The notes beneath the pieces were generated by a model, which worked only from the letters and a program-made list of their open reading frames with translations, searched no databases and had not been told where the DNA came from. Shown piece by piece: positions 1,798 to 10,677 of a DNA stretch of 11,891 nt. Position 1 is the first letter of the stretch. Each line of letters starts with the position of its first letter. The stretch comes from Eudoraea sp. (GTDB lineage: Bacteria > Bacteroidota > Bacteroidia > Flavobacteriales > Flavobacteriaceae): assembly GCA_013042125.1 (NCBI GenBank), contig JABDQS010000200.1, forward strand, positions 1 to 11,891, in the 5' to 3' direction. The position numbers and the translations under genes are program-made.

Positions 1798-1811
1798 ATG
1801 ATTAATATCAT
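1798..1811 (+). promoter_or_regulatory. FNR/CRP-type palindrome upstream of hemN
   Basis: The bases ATGAT-TAAT-ATCAT form inverted half-sites with a 4-bp spacer. This is the geometry of FNR/DNR/NnrR boxes (TTGAT-N4-ATCAA), with one outer base changed in each half. Its centre (1804.5) lies 29.5 bp before the first base of TAATTTTG at 1834-1841, so it would sit near -41.5, the classic class II activator position. The same half-sites and spacing recur before the cytochrome c gene (4744-4757). The binding regulator is not encoded in this window. Confidence 0.6.
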
Positions 1812-1833
1812 ATTTTAAGAACCGAGGTACATG

Positions 1834-1841
1834 TAATTTTG
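1834..1841 (+). promoter_or_regulatory. Candidate hemN -7 element
   Basis: TAATTTTG matches the Bacteroidetes -7 consensus TAnnTTTG at every fixed base. Transcription would begin near 1846, leaving a leader of only about 12 nt before the hemN ATG at 1858. No TTG is seen at the -33 position. A promoter with a weak -33 fits dependence on an activator bound at 1798-1811. Confidence 0.5.
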
Positions 1842-4257: not shown

Positions 4258-4689
4258 TCAGGATGATATGAAGGAGGCGCCTTTTTTAAGATCGAGTGAG
4301 AGCTCGCCAATCGTCATTTTTTTTAACGTACCTAAAAGAACAGCTCTGGAAGGGCCCACGTATTCGTGAAGAGGACAGGGATGTTGTGCATTGCATTCCT
4401 CAATTCCAAGGACGCATGCTTCCATTCTCTGATTCCCATCTATTACTTCAATAACCCTATAAACAGAATTCTCTTTGTTCTCTTTAGTAAGGTAATAGCC
4501 GCCCTTGGGCCCTTTTGTAGATGAGATGATATTGTGCTTAGAGAGGTTCTGTAATAATTTTGCCAGATAGGCCTTGGGCACTTGAGTAGGTTGGTAAAGA
4601 TCTTTTACCATAAGTTTATTGGAGCTATCTGTTTTATCTGCAAGATACAATACCGCTTTTAAGGCGTATTTCCCTGAATTACTCAGCAT
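4258..4689 (-). CDS. Rrf2-family transcriptional regulator with Fe-S-type cysteines (NsrR/IscR-like)
   Basis: This 143-residue protein begins MLSNSGKYALKAVLYLADK, the start of the Rrf2 winged-helix domain. The recognition-helix region (VPKAYLAKLLQNLSKHNII, about 37-55) and the wing SSTKGPKGGYYLTK (56-69) are both present. Three cysteines, C92, C99 and C105, lie where NsrR and IscR bind an Fe-S cluster, but with spacing C-x6-C-x5-C. It could sense NO, oxygen or cluster status. NsrR-like sensing of NO would suit a denitrification locus, but sequence alone does not decide. It is divergent from the cytochrome c-nos operon, with a 122-bp gap holding two palindromes. The likely targets are its own promoter and perhaps nos. 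A small membrane-peptide ORF follows on the same strand. Confidence 0.9.
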   Translation of the reverse strand: MLSNSGKYALKAVLYLADKTDSSNKLMVKDLYQPTQVPKAYLAKLLQNLSKHNIISSTKGPKGGYYLTKENKENSVYRVIEVIDGNQRMEACVLGIEECNAQHPCPLHEYVGPSRAVLLGTLKKMTIGELSLDLKKGASFISS

Positions 4690-4713
4690 ACTTTTGGTTT
4701 CTAAATAAGAATT

Positions 4714-4721
4714 TAAAGATA
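4714..4721 (-). promoter_or_regulatory. Candidate -7 element of the Rrf2 gene
   Basis: On the minus strand the bases read TATCTTTA, matching TAnnTTTG except at the last base. Its first base (4721) is 29.5 bp from the centre of the shared palindrome at 4744-4757, exactly mirroring the cytochrome c side. The start codon would follow a leader of about 20 nt. Confidence 0.4.
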
Positions 4722-4724
4722 AAA

Positions 4725-4738
4725 GGATATTTATATCC
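4725..4738. promoter_or_regulatory. Palindrome GGATAT-TT-ATATCC, candidate Rrf2 operator
   Basis: Perfect 6-bp arms flank a 2-bp centre. The site lies directly upstream of the candidate -7 element of the Rrf2 gene, in the -12 to -30 zone where a bound repressor would block RNA polymerase, and is next to the FNR-type palindrome. Autorepression by the Rrf2 protein is an inference. I saw no second copy of it in the window. Confidence 0.45.
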
Positions 4739-4743
4739 GAAAT

Positions 4744-4757
4744 ATGATTTTTATCAT
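4744..4757. promoter_or_regulatory. Shared FNR/CRP-type palindrome between the Rrf2 gene and the nos operon
   Basis: ATGAT-TTTT-ATCAT extends to an interrupted palindrome with 8-bp arms AATATGAT/ATCATATT (4741-4760). It has FNR-box geometry and the same half-sites as the hemN site. Its centre, 4750.5, is the exact midpoint of the two divergent start codons (4689 and 4812) and is 29.5 bp from a -7-like element on each side. One dimer could therefore act from about -41.5 on both promoters. A CRP/FNR-family protein encoded elsewhere is the likely binder. Confidence 0.65.
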
Positions 4758-4779
4758 ATTATTTTGTGTAGTTCACTGC

Positions 4780-4787
4780 TATTTTTA
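4780..4787 (+). promoter_or_regulatory. Candidate -7 element of the cytochrome c-nos operon
   Basis: TATTTTTA matches TAnnTTTG except for the final G. It would start transcription near 4792, giving a leader of about 20 nt before the ATG at 4812. No properly spaced TTG -33 element is present, consistent with an activator-dependent promoter. Confidence 0.4.
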
Positions 4788-4811
4788 CCCGAAATTTTAA
4801 ATCTAAACCAA

Positions 4812-5315
4812 ATGAAATCAATCTTGAAAAGTATGGCCCTTTTGTTTTCTCTGCTACTCATAAGTTGCGGGGGAAAGGAAGAAAAAAAAGAAGGCTTTAG
4901 TGTGGATAGGAGTAAAGCTCCCGAGCAAACTTCTGAGGTATCTTCAGAGACCAATGACGTACCTGCATCTCAACGTATTACGCTCGATGAGAAAGGGGTA
5001 GGGCAAATAAAAGAGATTACGCTCGATCCTCAGATCGACACTGAAATGGCAGCTGCCGGTGAAGCTATCTTTAAGACCAATTGCACAGCTTGTCATAAAA
5101 TAGATAAACGATTTATTGGCCCTTCACCAAGAGGAATTTTGGAAAGAAGAAGTCCGGAATGGATCATGAATATGATCCTCGATCCTAAATTGATGACAGA
5201 ACAAGATCGTTGTGCCAAAGATCTTCTAATAGAATTTAACGGAGCTGCCATGGCTAACCAAAATTTGACTGTGGAAGAGACCCGGTCCATTTTAGAATAT
5301 TACAGAACCCTATAA
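4812..5315 (+). CDS. Monohaem cytochrome c lipoprotein, candidate electron donor to NosZ
   Basis: I chose the ATG at 4812 because it gives a clean lipoprotein signal, MKSILKSMALLFSLLLISC with C19 as the lipidated residue. A longer frame from 4764 would place the promoter region inside the gene. The mature protein has a charged linker (residues 20-75) and then a class I-like cytochrome c domain. The haem motif is C91-T-A-C94-H95. FIGPSPRGI follows, and M147 in AAMANQ is the likely sixth ligand. An extra Cys, C134, is present. At 167 residues it is a small, membrane-tethered carrier. It is the first gene of the nos operon, with the FAS1 gene 11 bp downstream. No NosR, NosG or NosH is seen, so passing electrons to the CuA site of NosZ is the natural inference. 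Confidence 0.9.
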   Translation: MKSILKSMALLFSLLLISCGGKEEKKEGFSVDRSKAPEQTSEVSSETNDVPASQRITLDEKGVGQIKEITLDPQIDTEMAAAGEAIFKTNCTACHKIDKRFIGPSPRGILERRSPEWIMNMILDPKLMTEQDRCAKDLLIEFNGAAMANQNLTVEETRSILEYYRTL

Positions 5316-5326
5316 ATTTCGAACCA

Positions 5327-5911
5327 ATGAAAAGACCCAAAAAATTAATAATACTAGGAGTTTCCTTTCTTTTATTAGGAATAGTCTCAAATTGTAAAAA
5401 TGAGGCCAAAACAGATACTTCCACTGCTTCTCCTGCAGCGACAACAGATGAAGCTAAAGAAGAGGGACAGGCCTTTATTGAAGATGATGTATCCACGCCC
5501 AATGTTCTTGACATCGCGATAGGTTCTCCGGACCATACAACATTGGTGGCCGCAGTTCAGGCTGCTGATCTTGAGAATGTTCTTGTAAACGCCGGCCCCT
5601 TAATGGTATTTGCTCCTACAAATGAGGCCTTCGCGGCACTTCCTGAAGGAACAGTAGAAGACCTCCTTAAGCCTGAAAATAAGGATGCATTGGCCAATAT
5701 ATTGAAGTATCATGTAACACCGGGTAATTACAGCAAGGAGTTATTAATGAAATTCAAAAAATTAGGTCAGGCCAACGATCAGAGTGCTCCCGTTGAAGTA
5801 AAAGAAGGTGAGGTTTATGTAGGTGGGGCTAAGATCATTGCCAGTGTTAATGCAGGTAACGGAATTGTTCATGTAGTGGATAAAGTAATGTTGCCTCCGG
5901 CCGAAGAATAA
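5327..5911 (+). CDS. FAS1 (fasciclin) domain lipoprotein inside the nos operon
   Basis: This 194-residue protein has a lipoprotein signal ending IVSNC (C23), a low-complexity Thr/Ala/Glu linker (about 25-55) and one FAS1 domain (about 58-192). FAS1 landmarks are visible: FAPTNEAFAALP (95-106, the H1 box), KYHV (127-130, the YH motif) and GIVHVVDKVMLP (179-190, the H2 box). FAS1 domains usually mediate protein-protein or surface adhesion; no catalytic or metal site is evident. It lies between the cytochrome c and nosZ genes, with 11 and 32 bp gaps, so it is almost certainly co-expressed with them. A scaffold holding cytochrome and NosZ together at the membrane is a speculative reading. Its role in N2O reduction is not known to me. 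Confidence 0.92.
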   Translation: MKRPKKLIILGVSFLLLGIVSNCKNEAKTDTSTASPAATTDEAKEEGQAFIEDDVSTPNVLDIAIGSPDHTTLVAAVQAADLENVLVNAGPLMVFAPTNEAFAALPEGTVEDLLKPENKDALANILKYHVTPGNYSKELLMKFKKLGQANDQSAPVEVKEGEVYVGGAKIIASVNAGNGIVHVVDKVMLPPAEE

Positions 5912-5943: not shown

Positions 5944-7899
5944 ATGATAAAAATTAAATATTCCGCGCTTGCCTTTTTAGGACTGGTGATGGTCTTTACC
6001 GGTTGTAATGACGCAGGCAAGTCCTCTAATGGGGCATTGTCTTCCAGCGCTGCTGAAAAAGTATATGTGGCCCCGGGAGAACAAGATGAATTCTACGCCT
6101 TCCTTTCAGGTGGGTACAGCGGTAACCTGACTGTTTACGGTCTTCCGTCTGGACGTATGTTTAAGGAAATACCTGTTTTCTCGCAATTTCCAACCTCAGG
6201 GTATGGGTATTCTGAAGAAACCAAACCCATGTTAAATACTTCCTTTGGATTTGTTCCATGGGATGATTCCCACCACCCCGATATTTCTCAGACCAATGGA
6301 GAATTGGATGGGAGATGGATCTTTATCAATGGGAACAATACTCCGAGGATAGCCCGGATAAGCCTGAGTACTTTTGAGACTGAGGAGATCATGGAGATCC
6401 CTAACAGTGCGGGGAATCACAGTTCTTCCTTTATCACGGAAAATACCGAATATGTGGTGGCAGGCACACGTTTTTCAGTCCCTGTTCCACAGCGCGATAT
6501 GCCTATAAACGAATATAAAGGTAATTTTAAAGGTGCCTTATCTTTCATTAGTGTTGCCCCGGACGATGGTCGTTTAAATCTGGAATTCCAGGTCCTTATG
6601 CCTGGTTTCAATTATGACCTATCACATCCCGGTCGTGGAAAATCGCACGGATGGTTCTTCTTTTCAACCTATAATACGGAAGAAGCCAATTCCCTATTGG
6701 AAGTAATGGCTTCACAAAATGATAAGGATTTTATCGCCGCTATTAACTGGAAGAAAATAGAAGAGTATGTCAAAAATGGAGGCGGTACGAAGATGCCGGC
6801 TAATTATGCACACAACGTGTATGATGAAGAAACCCATACCGGAACCTCTACCATGAAAAAAGAGGTCATTACAGTAGATCCAACGAAAATACCCGGATCG
6901 GTGTACTTCTTACCCACTCCAAAATCTCCTCATGGTTGTGATGTGGATCCCACGGGTCAATATATAATTGGTAGTGGAAAATTGTCTGCTGACATTACAG
7001 TCCACTCCTTTGATAAAATGCTGGCAGCCATAGAAGGTGAAAAATTTGACGGAGAAGCCTATGGCATTCCTATTCTAAAGTTTGAAGAAGTTCTGGCGGG
7101 TACTGTAAAGAGCGGAGGTTTAGGACCACTGCATACAGAATTTGATGGCCAGGGAAATGCCTACACTACCTTCTTCATTTCTTCAGAAGTGGTTAAATGG
7201 AATGTTGGATCCTGGGAGGTCATCGATAGAAAACCCACGTACTATTCCGTAGGTCACCTTATGATTCCCGGAGGAAACTCGAGAAAGCCTTTTGGCAAGT
7301 ATGTTGTGGCTATGAACAAGATCACCAAGGACAGATATTTACCGACAGGCCCTGAAATGGAACACTCAGCACAGATCTATGACATATCTGGAGAGAAAAT
7401 GGAACTTATCTATGATTTCCCAACACATGGTGAGCCTCACTACGCCGCAGGTTGTCCTGCAGAACTTCTGGCACCTAAATCACAAAAGATCTACAGACTT
7501 GATGAGAATAAGCATCCCTATGCAACCCCAACACCAGATAAGGCAAGGGTAGAACGTACTGGTAATGAAGTACATGTCTATATGTCCACTATTCGAAGTC
7601 ATTTCACACCAGATAATATAGAGGGTATTAAGGTTGGGGATAAGGTATATTTCCATATTACCAACCATGAACAAGATTTTGATGTTCCGCACGGTTTCTC
7701 AATTATTGGTCAGAATACTTCTGAGATACTGGTTATGCCGGGACAAACCAAAACTTCCGTTTGGGAACCTAAAAAAGTTGGAGTATGGCCATTTTATTGT
7801 ACCGACTTCTGTTCTGCCCTGCATCAGGAAATGCAAGGTTATGTTAGGGTATCTCCAGCGAATTCTAACATAGAACTATCATGGACATTAGGTGAGTAA
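5944..7899 (+). CDS. nosZ: Nitrous oxide reductase, clade II, predicted lipoprotein
   Basis: NosZ reduces N2O to N2 with two electrons at the CuZ copper-sulfur cluster, fed through the binuclear CuA site. The 651-residue protein has an N-terminal beta-propeller and a C-terminal cupredoxin domain. Likely CuZ histidines are all present: H110-H111 (DDSHHPD), H159, H330 (SPHG), H397 (GLGPLHTEFDG), H438 (VGHL) and H499 (GEPHY). CuA ligands are H583 (VPHGF), C619, C623, H627 and M630 in CTDFCSALHQEM. Asp at position 621, where clade I has Trp (CSWFC), fits clade II. There is no Tat motif. The signal MIKIKYSALAFLGLVMVFTGC ends in a lipobox (C21), suggesting Sec export and lipid anchoring rather than a soluble enzyme. 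Maturation genes follow downstream. Confidence 0.98.
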   Translation: MIKIKYSALAFLGLVMVFTGCNDAGKSSNGALSSSAAEKVYVAPGEQDEFYAFLSGGYSGNLTVYGLPSGRMFKEIPVFSQFPTSGYGYSEETKPMLNTSFGFVPWDDSHHPDISQTNGELDGRWIFINGNNTPRIARISLSTFETEEIMEIPNSAGNHSSSFITENTEYVVAGTRFSVPVPQRDMPINEYKGNFKGALSFISVAPDDGRLNLEFQVLMPGFNYDLSHPGRGKSHGWFFFSTYNTEEANSLLEVMASQNDKDFIAAINWKKIEEYVKNGGGTKMPANYAHNVYDEETHTGTSTMKKEVITVDPTKIPGSVYFLPTPKSPHGCDVDPTGQYIIGSGKLSADITVHSFDKMLAAIEGEKFDGEAYGIPILKFEEVLAGTVKSGGLGPLHTEFDGQGNAYTTFFISSEVVKWNVGSWEVIDRKPTYYSVGHLMIPGGNSRKPFGKYVVAMNKITKDRYLPTGPEMEHSAQIYDISGEKMELIYDFPTHGEPHYAAGCPAELLAPKSQKIYRLDENKHPYATPTPDKARVERTGNEVHVYMSTIRSHFTPDNIEGIKVGDKVYFHITNHEQDFDVPHGFSIIGQNTSEILVMPGQTKTSVWEPKKVGVWPFYCTDFCSALHQEMQGYVRVSPANSNIELSWTLGE

Positions 7900-8033: not shown

Positions 8034-8663
8034 ATGAAAAAAGCGAGTATAATCATGATGGTAGGGCCCTTACTTTTATTGGGATTATTTGTCTTTCCAT
8101 TGTGGAACATAATGTTGGGTGCCCCCCAATACCCTGATCCCTTGGGGATCAATATTCATATCGATGGCATCAGGGATGTAAATGAGTTCGACATACAGAA
8201 TATAGACGGGCTAAACCATTATATTGGAATGAAGACCTTACCCAAGCCTGAGGATATGTGGGAATTTAGTACGTTTCCACTTATTATAGGAATAATGATC
8301 TTTCTGGGAACGCTAATCGGACTGTTGGGCTATGCAGGTAAAGTAAGCTACAAATGGTTTTTAGGCTGGTTTATACTGATGTCTGTTCTGGGAGTTATGG
8401 GAATGTATGATTTTAATGAATGGATGGTTGATTACGGAACTAATTTGGATCCCCATGCTATCATGAAACTTGCCAATCCGGATGGGACACCTATGACCTA
8501 CAAACCACCTCTTTTCGGACATACAAAAATGTTGAATTTTGATGTTACTTCTCTGCCTTCAACAGGGGCATGGTTTATGTTCACAGGGATGATGCTCACA
8601 GTAGTAGCCTTTTTTATGGGCAGAAAGCAGCGTCAATCCAGGGTAGAAATTGGTAATGAATAG
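8034..8663 (+). CDS. Four-helix membrane protein in NosB position, function unknown
   Basis: This 209-residue protein follows nosZ and precedes nosL. Hydrophobic spans are seen at about 6-26, 81-100, 107-126 and 177-196. Two extracytoplasmic-looking segments lie between them (about 27-80 and 127-176). The first contains NHYIGM (61-66). The second contains FGHTKM (161-166). With H42 and H141, these give several His and Met residues that could bind copper or haem. In clade II clusters such as that of Wolinella, a membrane protein called NosB lies next to nosZ. The position matches, but I cannot show homology, so no symbol is given. Its place among maturation genes suggests a role in NosZ assembly or electron input. 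The nosL coding region overlaps or closely follows its stop. Confidence 0.85.
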   Translation: MKKASIIMMVGPLLLLGLFVFPLWNIMLGAPQYPDPLGINIHIDGIRDVNEFDIQNIDGLNHYIGMKTLPKPEDMWEFSTFPLIIGIMIFLGTLIGLLGYAGKVSYKWFLGWFILMSVLGVMGMYDFNEWMVDYGTNLDPHAIMKLANPDGTPMTYKPPLFGHTKMLNFDVTSLPSTGAWFMFTGMMLTVVAFFMGRKQRQSRVEIGNE

Positions 8664-8685
8664 GCATATGATATATCGAAAATCG

Positions 8686-9120
8686 ATGAAAGTAACATAT
8701 TGTATCGTAGGCTTATTTATGATAGGACTTACCTCCTGTAATATTGGCCCGGCACCTATAAACTACGGTAGTGATGGTTGCCAATACTGCAGTATGACCA
8801 TCGTGGACAAACAACATGCAGCTGAATTTGTCACTAAAAAAGGCAAGATATTTAAGTTCGATGCCGTGGAATGTATGATGAATTACCTCAAGGAGATAGA
8901 TCAGACAACGGTTGCCCTGTTCCTTGTCAATGATTATGACGCTCCCGGTGAATTGACCAATGCTACCAAGGCTACATATCTTATCAGTAACAATATTCCA
9001 AGCCCTATGGGTGAGTTTCTCACAGCTTTTAAAAGCAGAGAAGTTGCCGAAAGGGTCCATGATGCTAATCAGGGAATGCTCTTGTCCTGGGATGAATTGC
9101 AGCAACGATTCAAGAAATAA
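8686..9120 (+). CDS. nosL: NosL, copper chaperone lipoprotein for NosZ
   Basis: NosL binds Cu(I) and delivers it for CuZ assembly with the NosDFY complex. I prefer the ATG at 8686, giving 144 residues, because it yields a compact lipoprotein signal MKVTYCIVGLFMIGLTSC (C18). ATGs at 8656 and 8668 and a TTG at 8650 are in frame. The 8656 start would overlap the preceding stop codon and allow translational coupling. The mature protein begins with GPAPINYGSDGCQYCSM, holding C32-x2-C35-x-M37, the conserved NosL copper motif. TIVDKQHAAEFVTKKG and FDAVECMMNYL (C63) follow and are also typical. It is a single-domain NosL of normal length, tethered outside the cytoplasmic membrane. The cupin gene begins 20 bp downstream. 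Confidence 0.95.
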   Translation: MKVTYCIVGLFMIGLTSCNIGPAPINYGSDGCQYCSMTIVDKQHAAEFVTKKGKIFKFDAVECMMNYLKEIDQTTVALFLVNDYDAPGELTNATKATYLISNNIPSPMGEFLTAFKSREVAERVHDANQGMLLSWDELQQRFKK

Positions 9121-9441: not shown

Positions 9442-10677
9442 ATGAGAATATTCATTTGTTTTTTAGTAGGTGTATTGTGCTTGGTTGGACAGGCACAGCA
9501 TTCCAAGGTAATCGAGGTTTGCCCAACGTGTACTGTAAAGACTATAAAAGAAGGCATTTCACTAGCATCAAACCATGACACCCTACAAATAAAAAAAGGT
9601 AAGTATCCCGAATACAACATTGTCATTGATAAACCTCTCACTTTGTTAGGAGAAGATTACCCTATTATCGATGGAGAAGATCAGGGGGAGATCATCCGCA
9701 TTGTGGCGGACAGTGTTACTGTAGACGGACTCTTTATTAAAAACGTTGGCACAAGCTATACCACAGACTGGGCGGCTATTCGCGTTGTAAAAAGTGAAAA
9801 TTATCTTATTCAAAATGTGGTGCTGGAGAACTTGTTTTTTGGGATCTATCTGGAAAGATCGAATAATGGAAGAGTATATAACAACAAGATCATAGGTGAT
9901 GCCATTGACGAGTACAATTCCGGTAATGGCATACAACTTTGGTACTCTAAAAATGTTGAAGTTGATCGAAATATTGTTCAGGGGGTGCGTGATGGAATTT
10001 ATCTGGAATTTTCCGACAACATTTCTATTAATAATAATATAAGTACGAAAAATTTGAGGTATGGTCTGCATTTTATGTTCTCGAATGATGACATTTATAC
10101 AAATAACACCTTTGAGAATAATGGCGCAGGGGTGGCCGTCATGTTTTCCAAAAGAATAAAAATGCTCAACAACACATTTCGTAAAAATTGGGGAGCTGCC
10201 GCATTTGGTATGTTGCTCAAGGAAATCAATGATGCTGAAATAACGGGCAATACTTTCAAAGAAAATACTATTGGAATAAATATTGAAGGCTCGAACCGAA
10301 TTCAGTACAATAACAACAATTTTATAAGTAATGGATGGGCGGTTAAGGTATTGGGGGCTTGCTATACCAATTCATTCAGGAATAATAATTTTTTGTATAA
10401 CTCCTTTGACATCTCTTATAATAGCAGGATGAATGACAATGTTTTTGATCAGAATTATTGGAGTGATTATACGGGCTATGATCTTGACAAGGATGGGGTG
10501 GGAGATGTTCCCTACAGACCCGTAAAGCTGTTTTCCTATATTGTGAATCGCACGCCTGAAACTATTATCCTTTTACGCAGTTTATTTATGGATATCATCG
10601 ATTTTTCCGAAAAGGTATCCCCCGTTTTCACTCCCGATAAACTTGTGGATGCAAATCCATTGATGAAGAAACAATAA
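9442..10677 (+). CDS. nosD: NosD, periplasmic beta-helix maturation protein
   Basis: NosD works with the NosFY ABC transporter and NosL in CuZ assembly of NosZ. The 411-residue protein has a Sec signal (about 1-19, ending VGQAQ). A long right-handed beta-helix follows, seen as repeated Asn-rich turns such as GRVYNNKI, SINNNIS, DIYTNNTF, KMLNNTF and EITGNTF. The C-terminus has WSDYTGYDLDKDGVGDVPY and PETIILLRS, typical of NosD. A C27-P-T-C30 pair stands right after the signal peptide. Its TAA shares one base with the nosF ATG (TAATG), which suggests translational coupling. It starts 7 bp after the cupin stop. Confidence 0.96.
   Translation: MRIFICFLVGVLCLVGQAQHSKVIEVCPTCTVKTIKEGISLASNHDTLQIKKGKYPEYNIVIDKPLTLLGEDYPIIDGEDQGEIIRIVADSVTVDGLFIKNVGTSYTTDWAAIRVVKSENYLIQNVVLENLFFGIYLERSNNGRVYNNKIIGDAIDEYNSGNGIQLWYSKNVEVDRNIVQGVRDGIYLEFSDNISINNNISTKNLRYGLHFMFSNDDIYTNNTFENNGAGVAVMFSKRIKMLNNTFRKNWGAAAFGMLLKEINDAEITGNTFKENTIGINIEGSNRIQYNNNNFISNGWAVKVLGACYTNSFRNNNFLYNSFDISYNSRMNDNVFDQNYWSDYTGYDLDKDGVGDVPYRPVKLFSYIVNRTPETIILLRSLFMDIIDFSEKVSPVFTPDKLVDANPLMKKQ

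Follow-up and report, generated by a model that had tools for sequence, protein, structure and literature searches.

What controls nitrous-oxide reduction in marine flavobacteria, and how many proteins does it take? Bacteroidota that carry clade II nosZ are considered important sinks of N2O. In the parts of PMC6264515 covered here, regulation in N2O reducers outside the Proteobacteria is described as little known, and it is already reported there that rrf2 accompanies clade II nos clusters in marine sediment. The window, as the whole stretch of DNA analyzed is called here, is an 11,891-base contig from a 2.24-Mb genome that is 74% complete. An rrf2 gene and a nos operon diverge in it from a shared 122-bp region, with ATGs at 4689 (minus strand) and 4812 (plus strand). 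The operon runs in the order c-type cytochrome, fasciclin-domain protein, nosZ, nosL, nosD and ABC ATPase, its nosZ is one that we take to be of the clade II type, and the nearest nosZ locus among the matches listed is that of an uncultured Muriicola. The genes are as follows.

4258..4689, minus strand: rrf2, Rrf2-family regulator of 143 aa (PF02082, E 5.2e-24)
4812..5315, plus strand: c-type cytochrome, gene 1 of the nos operon (PF00034)
5327..5911, plus strand: fasciclin-domain protein of the nos operon (PF02469)
5944..7899, plus strand: nosZ, Sec-dependent nitrous-oxide reductase (TIGR04246, 930.7 bits, cut-off 625)
8650..9120, plus strand: nosL-like protein, start codon uncertain (PF05573)
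9442..10677, plus strand: nosD (TIGR04247, 442.5 bits, cut-off 300)

A sequence-only reading had proposed that one FNR-type dimer, bound to a single palindrome midway between the two start codons, drives both transcripts. The region between the genes contains four elements that bear on this proposal.

4714..4721, minus strand: TATCTTTA, mirror -7 element for rrf2, separated from the S1 center by 29.5 bp, predicted start 4709
4724..4739, no strand: S2, AGGATA-TTTA-TATCCG (GGATA-N4-TATCC, 4725-4738), predicted NsrR-like Rrf2 operator at about -22.5 of rrf2 and -60.5 of nos
4741..4760, no strand: S1, Crp/Fnr-type inverted repeat with core ATGAT-N4-ATCAT at 4744-4757, predicted to bind an activator at -41.5 relative to both nos and rrf2
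4780..4787, plus strand: TATTTTTA, -7 element for the nos operon, separated from the S1 center by exactly 29.5 bp, predicted start 4792

S1 is made up of AATATGAT (4741-4748), TTTT and ATCATATT (4753-4760), with its center at 4750.5, and each half-site differs from the FNR consensus TTGAT by one base. Both the palindrome and the two start codons lie where that reading had located them. The nosZ loci compared were the best 80 of 464 relatives; L012 and L015 end before the promoter, and the other 78 plus the window give 79 usable promoters, 67 with a usable rrf2 start and 12 without. All counts out of 79, 67 or 12 below refer to this set. After a first comparison of relatives the S1 pattern was loosened from ATGAT-N4-ATCAT to ATGAY-N4-RTCAT, and in this form it occurs without mismatch upstream of the cytochrome gene in 79/79 promoters, so the lack of conservation that was to count against the proposal is not what the relatives present. 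The narrow core of the window is found in 38/79. ATGA and TCAT are invariant, and the inner bases read TA in 38 promoters, CA in 16, TG in 14 and CG in 11. The distance from S1 to the cytochrome ATG is 61.5-63.5 bp in 59/79, and that to the rrf2 ATG ranges from 51.5 to 84.5 bp across loci. In the window 4750.5 is indeed halfway between the ATGs, but as a design feature the exact midpoint does not hold, with equal distances in 5/67 loci and unequal ones (51.5/61.5 bp) in the closest relative, L005.

S1 is also tied to the core promoters. In the parts of PMC9723704 covered here, the sigma-A box of F. psychrophilum is TAnnTTTG at -12 to -5. The TAnnTTT-like elements claimed on each strand at 29.5 bp from the center are present as TATTTTTA from 4780 (plus) and TATCTTTA from 4721 (minus), each with one mismatch to TAnnTTTG. 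With a box start at -12, as in the covered parts of PMC9723704, the 29.5-bp spacing gives S1 a center at -41.5, and transcription is predicted to start at 4792 and at 4709, each 20 nt before its ATG. For nos, a TAnnTTTG with no more than one mismatch stands at exactly 29.5 bp in 67/67 promoters with a usable rrf2 start and in 12/12 without (perfect in 58 of the 67 and in all 12), and at other offsets from 22.5 to 41.5 bp the count is 0 or 1. Class II CRP/FNR-dependent promoters have their activator centered at -41.5. The nos promoter, with its predicted start sites, has this class II layout, namely the site at -41.5 and a fixed spacing.

The rrf2 side is less regular. The mirror -7 element is present with at most one mismatch at 29.5 bp in 39/67 promoters with a usable rrf2 start and in 0/12 without, and it is weak, being perfect in 3/67. 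Elements at other offsets (35.5 bp in 15 loci, 40.5 bp in 12) may serve loci without the 29.5-bp mirror element. These counts support the proposal that S1 acts on both genes in most loci, the predicted rrf2 promoter being weak.

The layout was also sought in a class-wide sample, in which nosZ was over its cut-off in 128/395 genomes and 60 loci were fetched, 9 of them from the window's own family (L214 duplicates L063). Defined as an S1 core with no more than one mismatch and a perfect TAnnTTTG exactly 29.5 bp away, the layout was present in 18/51 fetched Bacteroidia nos loci outside the family and in 5/9 inside; four control patterns each gave 0/60, so it extends beyond the family but is not universal. 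Three distant Bacteroidia nos promoters (L204, L208, L230) contain two S1-like sites 22-23 bp apart in place of S1 and S2.

S1 is not confined to nos. In the window's own genome ATGAT-N4-ATCAT occurs at 23 palindromic places, compared to 4 for the reversed pattern, and in three relatives ATGAY-N4-RTCAT exceeds its reversed pattern by 35:7, 42:5 and 68:7. By these counts S1 is a predicted regulon motif, more than chance. Open reading frames of 100 aa or more contain 9 of the 23 places, and the other 14 lie outside them. One of the 23 is a second site in the window itself.

1798..1811, no strand: S1 site before hemN, whose center is 29.5 bp from a perfect TAATTTTG

In this hemN promoter (window 1798-1841) the S1 center is 53.5 bp before the ATG, and the hemN product is assigned by TIGR00538 (426.3 bits, cut-off 324.95). 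Other genes at own-genome S1 sites, named by eye, include ccoS, a Usp gene other than that of the window, and genes for Hsp20, ferredoxin and PEPCK. Two further sites (L092:1501 and L101:1501) have TAnnTTTG-like elements with 0-1 mismatch 29.5 bp away on both strands, and bidirectional S1 promoters may therefore recur.

A column profile of the nos promoters reveals a further conserved block on the rrf2 side of S1, an inverted repeat (S2; 4725-4738 in the window) that is absent from the earlier account and whose center is 19 bp to the left of the S1 center. The pattern RRGAYA-N4-TRTCYY, derived from these promoters and loosened once, matches with at most two mismatches in 77/79 (48 perfect, 26 with one, 3 with two); in 200 shuffles of the left flank it matched 1.2 promoters on average and never more than 5. 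The spacing between S2 and S1 is exactly 19 bp in 72/77, with 4 at -1 and 1 at +1, and the conserved outer arms of the two repeats overlap by about 3 bp. S2 is kept in 10/12 loci without a usable rrf2 start (L029, L033, L038, L040, L056, L063, L067, L069, L080, L084), which argues that it serves nos. This retention, together with the recurrence of S2 at ric and at unlinked rrf2 genes described below, does not fit S2 as a mere -33 element of rrf2.

The product of the window's rrf2 gene is a member of the Rrf2 superfamily (PF02082, 85.3 bits vs 30; TIGR00738, 93.5 vs 73.3) with three cluster-type cysteines, C92-X6-C99-X5-C105. The pattern C-X5..7-C-X5-C is found in 76/87 aligned Rrf2 rows, and the other 11 are nine L001-type paralogues, L253_2742 and a poor row, L037_2855. 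Like NsrR, these proteins have three cysteines of the cluster-ligand type and a predicted regulon of NO genes, with S2 before 10/15 ric genes and with norB, ric and a globin gene beside unlinked rrf2. The NsrR label is nevertheless not earned, because the NsrR equivalog model NF008240 gives the window protein 30.5 bits against a cut-off of 182 (39.9 bits for the L131 protein) and because S2, RRGAYA-N4-TRTCYY, is not the NsrR operator gATGyAT-N5-ATrCATc. NO is the likely cluster-damaging signal, given the CX6CX5C cysteines, the norB/ric neighborhood and the known NsrR proteins. In a tree of 143 columns for 78 rows, in which the order of the forks is tentative, the L001-type paralogues stand apart from the rest (100/100), and the other rows include a nos-linked clade A of 42 rows (99/94) and a clade B of 21 rows (99/84); L021, L024 and L066, although nos-linked, belong to neither clade.

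The neighbors of the unlinked rrf2 genes include norB (PF22085), ric (TIGR03652) and a bacterial globin gene. In 11/11 clade-B unlinked rrf2 promoters examined, S2 with 0-2 mismatches is 22.5-24.5 bp before the T of TAnnTTTG (10 boxes perfect, 1 with a mismatch), which places its center near -35; a stricter earlier S2 pattern matches 9/11. Among 30 further Rrf2 loci of mixed types, S2 stands 24.5-25.5 bp before a TAnnTTTG-like element in 8 (L293-L298, L301, L309), of which L294 appears to duplicate L130, and three others (L306, L314, L318) are nos-linked copies with S1 and S2. The layout of S2 plus -7 element was not seen in most of the other further loci, and L292, L299, L300 and L302 are close to clade B yet lack S2. 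Fifteen of eighteen ric loci were readable, and S2 with at most two mismatches precedes the ric gene in 10 of these, mostly 27-48 bp before the ATG. It is not found at ric in L266, L270, L271, L272 and L273, the last two of which lie directly behind rrf2, nor at the ric gene of the L064 genome, and ric itself was not found in the window's own, incomplete genome.

S2 shows no genome-wide enrichment (own genome 80/86 vs control 84/88; 12 vs 17 in another count), as expected of a small regulon, and its identification thus rests on position and recurrence. A general Rrf2 motif it is not, since 7/8 L001-type paralogues (L140, L145-L151) have none within two mismatches; the eighth, L146, has a one-mismatch match 14 bp before its ATG. 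The genomes checked with S2 at nos hold a clade A or clade B Rrf2, and all 10 genomes with S2 but no usable nos-linked rrf2 hold an unlinked clade-B Rrf2. The link does not run both ways, since S2 is missing at nos in six class-level genomes (L206, L223, L241, L248, L250, L260) whose Rrf2 is clade-B-like (54-68% identity). In L067, L069 and L084 (genomes G011, G015 and G014) the adjacent rrf2 matches are partial or have an internal stop, an intact unlinked clade-B Rrf2 is present, and S2 is retained at nos. The two promoters of the 79 that lack S2 at nos are L064, in whose genome an L001-type paralogue is the only Rrf2 seen, and L079, whose genome has a distinct Rrf2 beside norC-like genes. 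Between that Rrf2 gene and a norC-like gene (L126, ~1546-1665) are an S1 (1555) and an S2-like repeat (1607), each with one mismatch, and the nor genes of this genome may carry the control that is lacking at its nos.

Which protein would bind S1? The window's own genome shows two Crp/Fnr-type proteins. The L003 protein has 229 aa with cNMP-binding and HTH_Crp domains (PF00027 and PF13545), and the genes beside its own are one for a P-type ATPase, a short one and a ccoN-like one that is cut off by the contig end; next to the Crp/Fnr gene, S1 sites with one mismatch stand before and after the ATPase gene. In the 27 relatives searched, its orthologues are 72-89% identical in 16 and 60-63% in 3, and 2 have only a 35-40% match. 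In the other six (G008, G010, G016, G018, G026, G027) only frames of ~350 aa match, with a similar recognition helix; the one such frame tested, just upstream of nos (L064:687-1733), is a receiver-cNMP-HTH fusion. The recognition helix reads E-x-x-I-R in 30/31 aligned rows. That of E. coli FNR is ETISR (E-x-x-S-R). An altered helix residue beside an altered half-site is, we infer, what co-variation would predict, as ATGAY-N4-RTCAT replaces the FNR pattern TTGAT-N4-ATCAA in 79/79 promoters.

The S1 binder is probably this 229-aa, cco-linked Crp/Fnr-family protein, unlike E. coli FNR at its recognition helix. Against the Fnr model PRK11161 (NCBIfam) the protein scores 105.5 bits, below the cut-off of 228, and its C5, C8 and C107 match three of the four cluster cysteines in an alignment with E. 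coli FNR; three cysteines plus another ligand may serve, and an oxygen signal is plausible. The earlier naming of an FNR-type site therefore stands as to a Crp/Fnr-type site with class II spacing for nos in 79/79, but E. coli-type FNR identity does not, given the half-site, the cysteine that is missing and the ~350-aa Crp-type frames that are the best match in 6/27 genomes. In the parts of PMC8510549 covered here, a Flavobacteriales Crp/Fnr protein is placed near MalR.

The best explanation, and one that we hold with fair confidence, is that S1 is a Crp/Fnr-type activator site and S2 an NsrR-like Rrf2 operator that gates nos and represses rrf2. It builds on sequence, spacing and conservation and on the fact that S2 recurs at rrf2 genes linked to NO and at ric genes; from these we infer which protein pairs with which site, the sign of the Rrf2 effect on nos, the Fe-S cluster and the signals. 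A Crp/Fnr-family activator at S1 would activate nos in class II fashion from -41.5, and rrf2 as well in 39/67 loci. Rrf2 at S2 would block the rrf2 core promoter (about -22.5), and at about -60.5 of nos, overlapping the outer edge of S1, it would gate the activator. Damage to the Fe-S cluster, most likely by NO, would release Rrf2, and nos would be expressed when low-oxygen-type and nitrogen-oxide signals coincide. Rrf2 most likely represses its own gene, because S2 lies over the rrf2 core promoter, at -22.5 in the window and ~-35 at unlinked genes, where a repressor would be expected, and autorepression appears likelier than the simple co-induction of rrf2 with nos that had been proposed. At nos, bound Rrf2 may hinder the activator, which we prefer, or the two proteins may touch; the rigid spacing fits both.

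That a single FNR-type dimer at S1 activates rrf2 and nos symmetrically, with nothing else needed, would account for the mirror -7 elements at 29.5 bp, for the tie of the mirror element to rrf2 (39/67 vs 0/12) and for the two-sided -7-like elements at L092 and L101, and to this extent the sequence-only reading was borne out. However, the mirror symmetry is broken by S2, which is present in 77/79 promoters, exactly 19 bp away in 72, lies inside the rrf2 core promoter and, retained in 10/12 loci without a usable rrf2, serves nos; a single activator dimer is therefore improbable as the whole of the control, and simple co-induction is doubtful. It is very improbable that S1 and S2 are tandem sites both bound by Crp/Fnr proteins, with Rrf2 acting elsewhere, since S2 is GAY-N6-RTC and S1 GAY-N4-RTC, S2 occurs without S1 before clade-B unlinked rrf2 and most ric genes, and of the two only S1 is a genome-wide motif. 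The GAY/RTC letters common to both sites and the S1-like pairs 22-23 bp apart at L204, L208 and L230 would suit such an arrangement.

A further alternative concerns the sign of the Rrf2 effect on nos. Positions near -61 are typical for activators. Rrf2 at S2 (-60.5) could thus be a co-activator of nos that touches the S1-bound protein while autorepressing rrf2 from -22.5, and the rigid 19-bp spacing (72/77), found also where rrf2 is not adjacent, would agree with contact. The overlap of ~3 bp between the arms fits exclusion equally well, and elsewhere S2 is in repressor-like places (near -35 at unlinked rrf2, mostly 27-48 bp before the ric ATG), so that co-activation seems rather unlikely; it overlaps the preferred explanation of gating except for the sign at nos, and the two are not exclusive parts of one whole. 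A bolder proposal, of rather low probability, is that S1 and S2 form one composite operator, whose rigid 19-bp spacing would reflect a ternary complex of the NsrR-like Rrf2 (-60.5) and the activator (-41.5) that sets nos as the same Rrf2 shuts its own promoter, so that a single piece of DNA would make a low-oxygen AND nitrogen-oxide decision on N2O removal in Flavobacteriaceae.

Parts of this scheme have precedents. In the parts of Rodionov et al. 2005 (PMC1274295) covered here, the E. coli hcp-hcr promoter has an FNR site and an NsrR site; as is predicted for the flavobacterial promoters, an FNR-type site and an Rrf2/NsrR-type inverted repeat join anaerobic and nitrogen-oxide signals, and the regulon includes dnrN/ytfE. 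In these parts the NsrR motif gATGyAT-N5-ATrCATc is downstream of the FNR site. Unlike it, S2 (RRGAYA-N4-TRTCYY) is upstream of S1 for nos and overlaps its edge, and the promoter is a divergent regulator/nos promoter in Bacteroidota. The same parts of PMC1274295 describe DNR at TTGATnnnnATCAA of nos genes. The class II CRP/FNR promoters and DNR share with the scheme predicted for S1 the activator centered at -41.5 and Crp/Fnr control of nos, but not the half-site ATGAY, the helix E-x-x-I-R (E-x-x-S-R in E. coli FNR) or the flavobacterial -7 box TAnnTTTG.

Magnetospirillum, which belongs to a different phylum, offers a precedent for the other site. In the parts of PMC11014258 covered here, its Rrf2/NsrR protein binds a nosZ promoter probe, an NO donor lowers the binding, and the nosZ transcript is higher in an nsrR deletion; NsrR-type control at nosZ is thus common to both, here as predicted from sequence, and those parts contain no S1/S2-type layout or shared divergent promoter. 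The covered parts of PMC6264515 likewise give no operators or promoter anatomy for the marine-sediment nos clusters. Neither operator was recognized at these promoters in the literature searched, a library with few subscription journals, and within it both operators, the distance between them and the divergent promoter that they share seem to be new.

S1 and S2 give a concrete control scheme for nos and suggest that greenhouse-gas removal in marine flavobacteria is under the joint control of a low-oxygen-type activator and a nitric-oxide-type regulator. Both sites also provide search signatures: S1 plus TAnnTTTG at 29.5 bp for Crp/Fnr-activated promoters, and S2 plus TAnnTTTG 22.5-25.5 bp downstream for NO-linked rrf2 promoters in Bacteroidia. 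At one unlinked rrf2 gene (L129, ~1950-1992), an inverted repeat that is longer and nearly perfect has S2, by eye, as its core.
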